A stretch of 36,954 nucleotides of DNA from Nitrospirales bacterium (GTDB lineage: Bacteria; Nitrospirota; Nitrospiria; Nitrospirales; UBA8639), in contig JAJEJG010000010.1 in assembly GCA_022828225.1 (NCBI GenBank), forward strand, positions 1 to 36,954. The letters are read 5' to 3'. Positions 10,057 to 34,870 of this stretch are shown here, one piece after another; the stretch's first letter is position 1, and every line of letters starts with the position of its first letter. Position numbers and translations under genes: made by a program. The notes below the pieces were generated by a model that was given only the letters and a program-made list of their open reading frames with translations, was not told the DNA's origin and did not search any database.

Positions 10057-10086
10057 ACAACGCATCGTGCGAAGCCGCATGTGCGA

Positions 10087-10121
10087 AAGCGGGAAGGGTC
10101 ATTGCCCTTCCCGCTTTTTTT
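10087..10121 (+). terminator. rho-independent terminator closing the respiratory block
   Basis: A near-perfect stem AAGCGGGAAGGG (10087-10098) / CCCTTCCCGCTT (10105-10116) with a 6-nt loop, running into seven T (10115-10121). It lies 30 bp after the second cytochrome gene. Confidence 0.93.
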
Positions 10122-31843: not shown

Positions 31844-31939
31844 ATGGCCGAAAATCCCCTCGGATCCCTTGCCGATTATAGTCATTTCGTTGCTGAAACC
31901 CTGAATCGTCCTTCCAGCCGCAAGATCTACCTCCCCTGA
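31844..31939 (+). pseudogene. truncated TumE/DUF6516-like toxin stub
   Basis: 31 codons: MAENPLGSLADYSHFVAETL then NRPSSRK, after which the frame runs into a family B palindromic repeat and stops at TGA 31937-31939 inside it. From memory, DUF6516 (TumE-type) toxins begin NPLESLAEYSRFVAELLNRP, a close match, and are about 140 residues long. The remaining ~110 residues are not found after the repeat and transposon either. It follows the DUF1902 gene in the same direction, as a toxin would. The identity needs a search, since only about 25 residues can be compared. Confidence 0.5.
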
Positions 31940-31953
31940 CCCCTCCTTACAAA
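31929..31953. repeat. family B palindromic repeat, left part (split by transposon)
   Basis: CTACCTCCCCTGACCCCTC plus CTTACAAA, which is one copy of the target duplication. With 34803-34809 it rebuilds a complete 21-bp palindrome, arms CCCCTCCTT / AAGGAGGGG around ACA. Confidence 0.85.
31946..31953 (+). repeat. 8-bp target site duplication, left copy
   Basis: CTTACAAA directly before the left inverted repeat; identical to 34795-34802. Eight bp is the usual duplication for IS1595-family elements. Confidence 0.93.
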
Positions 31954-31976
31954 GGGAATTATATACAATCCTAGAC
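31954..31976 (+). repeat. terminal inverted repeat, left
   Basis: 23 bp beginning GGGAATTATATACAA; exact reverse complement of 34772-34794. Just inside it lies another inverted repeat, GGTGGTC (31988-31994) / GACCACC (32014-32020), which could fold in a read-through transcript. Confidence 0.95.
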
Positions 31977-32093
31977 GGGCGTGGGAAGGTGGTCAATGAG
32001 TCCAAAGCCTTACGACCACCGGCTCATGTTCTATTTTCCCTCTGGTTTCTTTTCTCTGTTGCTTCCCTATTGCAATCTTATAGGAGATAGTAA

Positions 32094-32963
32094 ATGATCA
32101 ATTCTAATATAGTTCCGTCTAATTCAAGGTCTGGCGTGAAGTTTTGTTATTGTGATGAGAGTGGTGTAGGTGACGAACCGATTGCTGTTATGGTCGGCGT
32201 AGTTGTAGATGCGTCTCGGATGCATTTGACTAAAGATGACTGGCAAGAATTGTTAGGCAGCGTATCTAAGTTTGTTGGCAAACCTATTCCAGAATTACAT
32301 ACAAAGGCGTTCTACGCTGGGAACAGTCCATTTCGTGATCTAACGGGAACACAGCGATCTAACATCATATCAATAATTTATGATTGGTTGGCGGAGAGAA
32401 AGCATCATGTCGTCTACACCTCGGTTTTCAAAGAAAAGTATGAAAATTCTTTTGCGAAAGGCGATATCCCTGATGAACTAAATACGGTATGGCGTTTTCT
32501 TGGGTTTCATTTGGTGTTGGCTATGCAGAGGCATTGTCAGAAGCAAGCAAAACAAAAAGGGCATACGATTTATGTGTTTGATAACAAAGAACGTGAAGAG
32601 AAGAGATTTGTAGATATTATTTTGAGGCCCCCTAAGTGGAGTGATGAATACTATGGTCGCAAACTAAGGCAAAAACAACTCGATCAAATCATTGACGTGC
32701 CTTATTTTGGTGACTCTAAAGACGTGGGACTGATTCAGCTTGCCGACTTTTTTTCGTTCTTTTTACGACGTTATGCAGAAATTTCCGAAGGACTGGCCAA
32801 GCCGAATTATAAGGATGAGCGTTCAAAGCTTTCAAACTGGATTAAGATATTTGCAGAACGATCCATAGGGAGGGCGCATATTTACCCTAAAGGGTCCCTG
32901 AATTCGGCAGAAGAGTTGTTTTTTAACCACGCTCCGCCGTCTATCAGAATTCTCGGAAGCTAA
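32094..32963 (+). CDS. DUF3800 protein (transposon passenger)
   Basis: 289 residues. The DUF3800 hallmarks are the N-terminal YCDESG (Asp21-Glu22), PELHTKAF near 66-73, YVFDNKEREE with Asp163 and KDVGLIQLADFFSFFLRRY with Asp210 and Asp218. These acidic positions fit an RNase-H-like nuclease fold, though activity is not shown for the family as far as I know. The gene is visibly richer in A/T than the chromosome around it, with many TTT/AAA codons, which marks foreign origin. ATAGGAGA precedes the ATG. It lies upstream of, and in line with, the transposase inside the element. Possible roles are a transposition accessory factor or a defence nuclease; neither is shown here. Confidence 0.85.
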   Translation: MINSNIVPSNSRSGVKFCYCDESGVGDEPIAVMVGVVVDASRMHLTKDDWQELLGSVSKFVGKPIPELHTKAFYAGNSPFRDLTGTQRSNIISIIYDWLAERKHHVVYTSVFKEKYENSFAKGDIPDELNTVWRFLGFHLVLAMQRHCQKQAKQKGHTIYVFDNKEREEKRFVDIILRPPKWSDEYYGRKLRQKQLDQIIDVPYFGDSKDVGLIQLADFFSFFLRRYAEISEGLAKPNYKDERSKLSNWIKIFAERSIGRAHIYPKGSLNSAEELFFNHAPPSIRILGS

Positions 32964-32982
32964 GTATGCTCTACGAAAATCC

Positions 32983-33011
32983 TTGACACCAAGTCCTATT
33001 TTTGGTACAAT
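32983..33011 (+). promoter_or_regulatory. consensus sigma-70 promoter of the transposase
   Basis: TTGACA (32983-32988), 17-bp spacer, TACAAT (33006-33011). The predicted start is about 33018, 33 bp before the ATG. It lies just after the DUF3800 stop, so the transposase has its own promoter. Confidence 0.85.
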
Positions 33012-33041
33012 ACTAGACATATTCAACGACCAAAAATAGGA
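32994..33041 (+). promoter_or_regulatory. 13-bp perfect inverted repeat across promoter and ribosome binding site
   Basis: TCCTATTTTTGGT (32994-33006) and its exact complement ACCAAAAATAGGA (33029-33041). The left arm fills the -35/-10 spacer; the right arm contains the Shine-Dalgarno TAGGAG (33037-33042). Transcripts from the native promoter start between the arms and leave the ribosome binding site free. Read-through transcripts contain both arms and should hide it. It could also be a protein-bound operator. Confidence 0.75.
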
Positions 33042-33050
33042 GCGACGATC

Positions 33051-34001
33051 ATGCCGAAGAAAGCCCCTGGAAAACACTACCGACACGGAATCAGCTTGGT
33101 GGAATTGATTGACCGATTCCCCGACGAAGCCTCAGCGCGGACATGGTTTGAATCCATCCGATGGGCCAAGGGTCGGACGTGTCCGCATTGTGCCTCCACG
33201 GAAACCAAGCCGGTTCCGAACGAGAATCCCATGCCGTATCATTGCGGGGCCTGTCGGAAGTATTTCAGCGTGAAAACGGGAACGGTCATGCAGTCCAGTA
33301 ACTTGCCCTTGAGAAAGTGGGTCATCGGGTTTTACCTCATGTCCACGAACCTCAAAGGGGTGTCCAGTATGAAACTCCATCGGGATTTGAAAGTGACGCA
33401 AAAGACGGCCTGGATGATGGCGCAAAAAATTCGGCAAGCATGGAATCTGGACCAAGCGATGTTAGCCGGTCCCGTCGAAGTGGATGAGACCTATATCGGC
33501 GGCAAAGAGAAGAACAAACACCAAAGTCTGAAACCGAAGAAACTCCGAGGGACAACGGGCAAGCAAGCCGTCATTGGGATGCGGTCACGCAAGGGGCAGA
33601 TCAAGGCCAAACCCATTGCTGGAACGGATCGCGGCACCTTGTGGAATGAGATTGAACAGAACGTCCCGAAGGGCAGCACGCTCTATACAGACGACCACGG
33701 AGCCTATCGGGGTCTGGATATGTCGGACTACGACCATCATGTGGTCAATCATTCAGCCAAGCAATACGTGAACGACCAAGCCCACACCAACGGGATTGAA
33801 TCCTTTTGGGCTATGCTCAAGAGAGGCTACCACGGCACGTTTCACAAGATGAGTGTGAAGCACCTGCATCGGTACGTGAACGAGTTTGCCGGACGGCATA
33901 ATATTCGGGAAGCGGACACGATTGAACAAATGGCATTCTTGGCTCAGGGTGTCGTGGGGAAACGGTTGCCGTATAAGGAATTGATTGCCAATGTCCGTTG
34001 A
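33051..34001 (+). CDS. IS1595-family (ISXO2-like) transposase
   Basis: 316 residues, full length. An N-terminal zinc ribbon has C44-x2-C47 and C65-x2-C68 (CPHC, CGAC). A helix-turn-helix-like stretch follows (SSMKLHRDLKVTQKTAWMMAQKIR). The DDE-type catalytic domain has VEVDETYIGGKEKNKH with Asp145, LYTDDHGAYRGL with Asp214/215, and TNGIESFWAMLKRGYHGTFH with Asn247, Glu250 and Lys257. TAGGAG lies 8 bp before the ATG. All catalytic positions are intact, so the protein should be active. Its GC content resembles the host chromosome, unlike the DUF3800 neighbour. Confidence 0.95.
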   Translation: MPKKAPGKHYRHGISLVELIDRFPDEASARTWFESIRWAKGRTCPHCASTETKPVPNENPMPYHCGACRKYFSVKTGTVMQSSNLPLRKWVIGFYLMSTNLKGVSSMKLHRDLKVTQKTAWMMAQKIRQAWNLDQAMLAGPVEVDETYIGGKEKNKHQSLKPKKLRGTTGKQAVIGMRSRKGQIKAKPIAGTDRGTLWNEIEQNVPKGSTLYTDDHGAYRGLDMSDYDHHVVNHSAKQYVNDQAHTNGIESFWAMLKRGYHGTFHKMSVKHLHRYVNEFAGRHNIREADTIEQMAFLAQGVVGKRLPYKELIANVR

Positions 34002-34082: not shown

Positions 34083-34343
34083 ATGCGGCAAAAATGGAAA
34101 GAGAAGATCGCGCAGTGGGGGATAGTGGGGTCTAGTGTTTTGGTCATTGTTATTGCCAGAAAGCAGGATCAGATAAACGCGTTCATCCTGGACCACCTCA
34201 GCATTATCCTTCTCCTTATCGCTCTTGTTTGTGTCAATCTTGGCATAGCCGTCTACGAATGGAAAATGAAGCTAGAGAAGCAACTTGAAAGTCTCGACGA
34301 GAAAGCCACGAACATTATCGAGAGACTGGATGAAAATGACTGA
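34083..34343 (+). CDS. small membrane protein, transposon passenger
   Basis: 86 residues from ATG 34083. Two hydrophobic stretches (WGIVGSSVLVIVIA and LSIILLLIALVCVNLGIAV) are followed by a charged, probably coiled-coil tail (KLEKQLESLDEKATNIIERL). A longer reading frame from TTG 34002, immediately after the transposase stop, would add a Gly-rich segment with no ribosome binding site; I do not prefer it. The upstream 80 bp contains a hairpin, AGCCGAGG / CCTTGGCT. No family recognised. It overlaps the next gene by 8 bp, which supports that it is translated. Confidence 0.55.
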   Translation: MRQKWKEKIAQWGIVGSSVLVIVIARKQDQINAFILDHLSIILLLIALVCVNLGIAVYEWKMKLEKQLESLDEKATNIIERLDEND

Positions 34344-34581
34344 CTATTTGTGCACTCATGTTCTACCCCATCGGCACCCGCCTTGGGACGTGACCTATTC
34401 CGTGGACAATCACGAGGAAGGCACGGGTTGGGGCGCCTATAGTTATCATTGTTTTGAGATTCCGTGTGGGTCCAATCGGCGGGCCGGAGAGAAACGGAAA
34501 TGGATCAAGGGGAGTGTTGCGCAAGCGGAGCAGGCCGGATTCGTGGCGTGCCGTCGGTGCCTGAAGCCATTAAGCCCATAA
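34336..34581 (+). CDS. 81-residue Cys/His-rich protein, transposon passenger
   Basis: Starts ATGACTGA, overlapping the stop of the membrane protein by 8 bp. The sequence is mixed and aromatic (YLCTHVLPHRHPPWDVTY, GWGAYSYHCFEIPCGSNRR) and ends GFVACRRCLKPLSP. The C-x2-C at the end with earlier Cys/His could bind a metal. No family recognised. It is a separate short gene within the element and has no counterpart elsewhere in the window. Confidence 0.55.
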   Translation: MTDYLCTHVLPHRHPPWDVTYSVDNHEEGTGWGAYSYHCFEIPCGSNRRAGEKRKWIKGSVAQAEQAGFVACRRCLKPLSP

Positions 34582-34771: not shown

Positions 34772-34794
34772 GTCTAGGATTGTATATAATTCCC
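34772..34794 (-). repeat. terminal inverted repeat, right
   Basis: 23 bp ending TGTATATAATTCCC; exact complement of 31954-31976. Confidence 0.95.
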
Positions 34795-34802
34795 CTTACA
34801 AA
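34795..34802 (+). repeat. 8-bp target site duplication, right copy
   Basis: CTTACAAA, identical to 31946-31953, directly after the right inverted repeat. Confidence 0.93.
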
Positions 34803-34870
34803 GGAGGGGGACAGAAGGTGAAACGACCAGCTTTTCCTCCCCTTTGTAAGGGGAGGGCAGGGTGGGGTAG
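34803..34870. repeat. remainder of split family B repeat and a second, inverted copy
   Basis: GGAGGGG (34803-34809) completes the palindrome interrupted by the transposon. After a 26-bp spacer, arms CCTCCCCTT / AAGGGGAGG around TGT (34836-34856) and a GCAGGGTGGGGTAG tail form a second copy in opposite orientation. The original locus was thus a repeat doublet. Confidence 0.8.

Follow-up and report, generated by a model that had tools for sequence, protein, structure and literature searches.

A promoter-embedded inverted repeat that probably guards an IS1595-family transposase gene against translation from read-through transcripts

The principle of protecting a transposase gene from transcripts that enter from outside is already known from IS10 and IS50. 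Read-through protection has reportedly been described for the left end of IS10 in Tn10. There, the native mRNA begins downstream of one arm of an inverted repeat, the other arm overlies the site where transposase translation starts, and read-through RNA is blocked in translation. IS50 in Tn5 is likewise said to be under read-through control, with read-through transcripts folding over the transposase Shine-Dalgarno (SD). IS10 has an IS4-family transposase, a promoter at the element's end and, besides, the antisense RNA-OUT; IS50 has a second promoter that yields an inhibitor protein. IS elements in general restrict their activation upon insertion into transcribed genes (PMC7986276). In ISPpu9 of Pseudomonas putida, structure in the 5′-UTR of the transposase mRNA limits translation and two small RNAs act on this native 5′-UTR (PMC8450116). 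For the IS1595 family (Siguier, Gagnevin and Chandler 2009, as cited in PMC7986276 and PMC12428005), these citing passages give 8-bp target duplications, TIRs starting with GG and passenger genes as features. In the literature that we searched, with most subscription papers outside it, we found no earlier report of a read-through hairpin for this family.

We analysed a 36,954-nucleotide stretch of DNA from a Nitrospirales bacterium (GCA_022828225.1, contig JAJEJG010000010.1; hereafter the window), which carries the only copy in its genome of a 2841-bp element (Table 1). Its transposase has the N-terminal zinc ribbon and IS1595-type DDE domain of the IS1595 family (PF12762, E 7.1e-46; PF12760; NF033547, 195 bits against a cut-off of 75; all above cut-off) and matches IS1595 models only, unlike the IS4-family transposases of IS10 and IS50. 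The element's 23-bp TIRs are identical and open with GG, and the 8-bp duplication CTTACAAA flanks both ends, as in other IS1595-family members. A co-oriented DUF3800 passenger gene lies directly 5′ of the transposase gene, its stop codon 19 nt 5′ of the -35 and 30 nt 5′ of the left arm of the inverted repeat considered here. Since this passenger adjoins the transposase gene and no terminator-like site was found between the two, read-through RNA should arise from the cargo of the element itself and not from host genes alone. The SD of the passenger itself also falls within a small potential stem (CCTAT/ATAGG, 32060-32095). Compared with IS10, the present transposase promoter lies 1 kb into the element and is preceded by a passenger gene, and an arm of the repeat sits in the -35/-10 spacer; compared with IS50, no second product of the inhibitor type was seen; and whereas many other IS1595 members have their -35 within IRL, this promoter is an internal one. 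Together with relatives from the genus (L003, L004, L107), the element sits in a shared REP-like palindrome (34791-34854 and 31930-31953 in the window) with the motif CCTTACAAAGG, which recurs inverted downstream, and these elements may target the palindrome; ISPpu9 too inserts into REP-like palindromes (PMC8450116). An Rfam scan of the element gave no match, and no relative of it was found among viral contigs.

Table 1. Features of the IS1595-family element, in window coordinates
Feature	Position	Strand	Basis or remark
Target-site duplication, left copy CTTACAAA	31946..31953	.	direct reading; exact 8-bp match by script
IRL GGGAATTATATACAATCCTAGAC, 23 bp, identical to IRR	31954..31976	+	
DUF3800 passenger gene, 289 aa	32094..32963	+	Pfam PF12686, E 4.5e-13
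-35 TTGACA, transposase promoter	32983..32988	+	
Left arm TCCTATTTTTGGT (anti-SD arm), in promoter spacer, 5′ of predicted start	32994..33006	+	
-10 TACAAT	33006..33011	+	start predicted at ~33018, inferred as 7 nt past the -10
TIR-core copy TACAATNCTAGAC, candidate transposase binding site	33006..33018	+	0-mismatch match
Right arm ACCAAAAATAGGA, over Shine-Dalgarno	33029..33041	+	
Shine-Dalgarno AGGAG	33038..33042	+	direct reading
IS1595-family transposase, 316 aa	33051..34001	+	Pfam, NF033547
Small ORF 3′ of transposase, 86 aa, no Pfam family	34083..34343	+	
Small ORF 3′ of transposase, 83 aa, Ada_Zn_binding match sub-threshold only	34330..34581	+	
IRR	34772..34794	-	
Target-site duplication, right copy CTTACAAA	34795..34802	.	

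A preliminary description of this DNA had proposed a 13-bp stem with its left arm upstream of the predicted start of the native mRNA and its right arm on the SD, and the sequence agrees at each of these points. The two arms are complementary at 13 of 13 positions across a loop of 22 nt. The left arm, whose last T also belongs to the -10, occupies the 3′ portion of the 17-nt spacer of a promoter that is predicted by its consensus (11 of 12 bases, with TG before the -10), and thus lies 5′ of the start predicted from it; the right arm overlaps AGGA in the AGGAG, which stands 8 nt before the ATG. A perfect inverted repeat of at least 13 bp with a loop of at most 40 nt did not appear in any of 3000 dinucleotide shuffles of 32951-33070, and the whole window contains three such repeats against an average of 0.0 in shuffled windows. 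Another of the three (10086-10117, 13 bp, followed by a T run) is an ordinary intrinsic terminator. The 48-nt hairpin RNA folds at -14.3 kcal/mol (z -5.6), while the predicted native leader, from 33018 onward, has no left arm with which to build the long stem. Opening the SD is predicted to cost 3.9 kcal/mol in the native RNA, 9.5 in the read-through RNA and 4.2 when the left arm is shuffled.

In our view the inverted repeat probably works as a conditional RNA switch and guards the element from accidental activation. Native transposase mRNA would begin at about 33018, without the left arm and with a fairly open SD, whereas RNA starting further upstream, either the DUF3800 passenger transcript or a host transcript running across the left end, would carry both arms, fold the 13-bp stem over AGGA and be translated poorly. 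A ribosome terminating on the passenger should not melt the stem, because the stop codon lies 30 nt before the left arm. The earlier claim that only outside transcripts carry both arms has to be widened to the element's own passenger transcript. The arm plan relative to the predicted native start and the transposase translation start is that of IS10, and folding over the SD is what IS50 read-through transcripts do; the silencing logic that had been proposed by analogy with these two elements is supported by our in silico tests on relatives, on recurrence across the family and on SD opening. ISPpu9 differs in that small RNAs control its native 5′-UTR, as opposed to a stem confined to read-through RNA.

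Loss of the repeat in close relatives would have spoken against this switch, and among relatives drawn from GTDB genomes the two nearest elements both keep it. In L003, a 3469-bp element of a Nitrospira MAG with an 83% identical transposase, the left arm TCCTATTTTTGGT is unchanged and the right arm reads ACCAAAAA--GGA, with a 2-nt deletion. In L004 (transposase 80% identical) the arms have become CTCTTATTTATGAT and ATCATCAAATGGGAG, and all 13 left-arm positions are still paired: two pairs have been exchanged by double substitutions (T-A to A-T and G-C to A-T), two are G-U, and a single C is bulged; this stem is the optimum fold in RNAfold. Pairing is weakly supported in L005 (71% identity). 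A covariation count over three sequences of the clade gave no clear signal, being reached by 48 of 500 shuffles, in part because one of the three has a 1-nt deletion that the MAFFT alignment left unplaced. The upstream passengers of L003 and L004 are likewise co-oriented and end at the promoter; 3′ of the transposase, both elements carry a further passenger that joins a DNA N6/N4 methyltransferase to an HNH nuclease domain (L003:2942-4537, L004:3244-4488). The Dadabacteria relatives L008, L009 and L012 have a hairpin just 5′ of the main SD and not over it. These three also share a conserved five-codon upstream ORF (MIKE-S/T/I; 1940-1985 in L009), with an SD-like AAAGAG in the hairpin arm and codons that contain the transposase SD, so that translational coupling of this ORF to the transposase is possible.

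The same plan recurs across the IS1595 family with other arm sequences. This genome has two more complete IS1595 transposase genes, and both show it with unrelated arms, ACCTCCA/TGGAGGT in L002 and ATATGTCCCT/AGGGGTATAT in L089, and in the L089 homologue L088 a 16-bp pairing extends through to the start codon; within the trio L071, L088 and L089 there are compensatory exchanges in the arms. Further clear cases are L060 (TAGACTCC/GGAGTCTA), L150 (ATGGCCTC/GAGGCCAT) and L166 (ATCTCC/GGAGAT), while no SD pairing stands out in L030. In ISPma1, ISKpn3, ISAeca5 and IS1595 itself, too, the SD region forms a stem with sequence close to the -10 or the start; the promoters of these four are less clear, and they are not counted as proof. 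To put this on a statistical footing, we took 48 transposase genes of the IS1595 type in which promoter, SD and start codon could be recognised, with 31 host genes picked by the same rules as controls, and scored how well the stretch from the -35 hexamer to -1 pairs with the gene's own SD window. Own segments paired better than swapped ones both in 13 elements below 50% identity (mean -13.7 against -9.8 kcal/mol, z -4.8) and in 18 elements below 50% identity (-12.0 against -9.5 kcal/mol, z -3.9; 22 of 100,000 permutations). Against spacer shuffles that keep the hexamers, the mean z was -1.50 in the 48 elements and 0.00 in the 31 host genes. The layout is not universal, with 46% of the 48 elements reaching a shuffle p of 0.05. 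For 31 representatives that share less than 70% identity, the predicted cost of SD opening was 2.5 kcal/mol in native, 6.3 in read-through and 3.8 in left-shuffled RNA (p 0.0002), a rise of about 4 kcal/mol from native to read-through RNA; control genes and their shuffles did not differ in it. In a sliding-window scan, pairing stood out at centres between -6 and 0 relative to the predicted start and rose again at -18, in the spacer as in the window's element; centres -27 to -54 gave no signal. A strand test meant to detect selection at the RNA level, the ratio of G-U to A-C mismatches, gave 18 to 8 against a shuffled expectation of 7.1 to 4.8, which is in the right direction and not significant.

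A second layer of control is suggested by the -10 region TACAATACTAGAC (33006-33018), which matches the TIR core TACAATNCTAGAC, located at 31964-31976 and 34772-34784 within the TIRs, at every base; the promoter copy is the sole other match in the window. Such a match was reached in 1 of 5000 shuffles for the window and in 0 of 5000 for L003, where promoter and IRR have the core in one and the same altered form (TACATT-CTAGACAA). In L008 and L009, two of the Dadabacteria elements, TTACCA at the promoter stands against CTACCA in the TIR. The transposase may bind the TIR-core copy and repress its own internal promoter at the DNA level. Autorepression stays a suggestion from sequence, because, of 11 elements compared, the window's and L003 show a clear similarity of own TIR to own promoter and the rest a weak one. 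The IS1 promoter lies in the left end itself, in contrast to the separate TIR-core copy at an internal promoter seen here. IS1 nevertheless offers a parallel as presented in the passages of PMC12428005 that cite Zerbib et al. 1990, namely autorepression by InsA, an element-encoded DNA-binding protein acting at a TIR-containing promoter.

Could the dyad instead act on DNA, as an operator across the -10 and the start that binds a dimeric repressor or the transposase? The predicted start lies at the centre of the repeat, which encloses the exact TIR-core copy, and a DNA-level site at a transposase promoter is plausible in any case. However, a dimer site would need constant spacing, whereas the arms vary between elements in sequence, length and spacing and gain bulges and G-U pairs with the SD still paired; moreover, the TIR-core copy lies between the arms and not inside them, and what recurs across the family is complementarity to the SD, which is absent in host genes. 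An operator alone does not explain the changing spacing, the bulges or the SD complementarity, and we regard it as unlikely. A constitutive attenuator, in which the native start lies 5′ of the left arm, the hairpin is part of every transcript and just keeps transposase translation low, draws on the fact that the start is a prediction and that DUF3800 and the transposase gene could form a single operon without another start. It must contend with a left arm placed inside the spacer of the region's best promoter and with a pairing segment that, across the family, lies at or 5′ of the predicted start, and it too seems quite improbable.

The reading that the palindrome has no function, arising by chance or being kept only through constraint on promoter and SD, has in its favour that spacers tend to be rich in pyrimidines and SDs in purines, which makes some pairing expected. 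Indeed, by a cruder count, in which the MFE structure pairs at least three SD bases with pre-start bases, 48% of control genes score alongside 71% of the elements, a weaker contrast. Composition-preserving shuffles, swapped arms and host genes nevertheless all fail to reproduce the pairing, and L004 and the L071/L088/L089 trio carry compensatory changes; absence of function is already disfavoured and appears very improbable. Two other identities for the repeat were rejected: an intrinsic terminator, as no T run follows the hairpin and no terminator-like site was found, and a TIR, the true TIRs being at 31954 and 34794.

Returning to the RNA switch, we lean towards a wider view, held with less assurance than the account of this one element, that it is a widespread and fast re-evolving trait of the IS1595 family. 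The promoter itself, through its spacer, -10 edge or discriminator, would serve as an anti-Shine-Dalgarno arm that silences transposase translation from all foreign transcripts; in passenger-carrying members it would also insulate the transposase from the RNA of their own cargo, with the TIR-core copy adding autorepression by the transposase. Read-through protection is textbook knowledge for IS10 and IS50 and has so far rested on few elements. Here it appears as a trait that statistics can pick up across an entire transposase family unrelated to theirs, in which the arm sequences have been replaced repeatedly while the pairing stays. A transposon that bears cargo could thereby have that cargo transcribed without waking its transposase, and the simple sequence test used here, of a promoter segment against its own SD, could serve all IS families.
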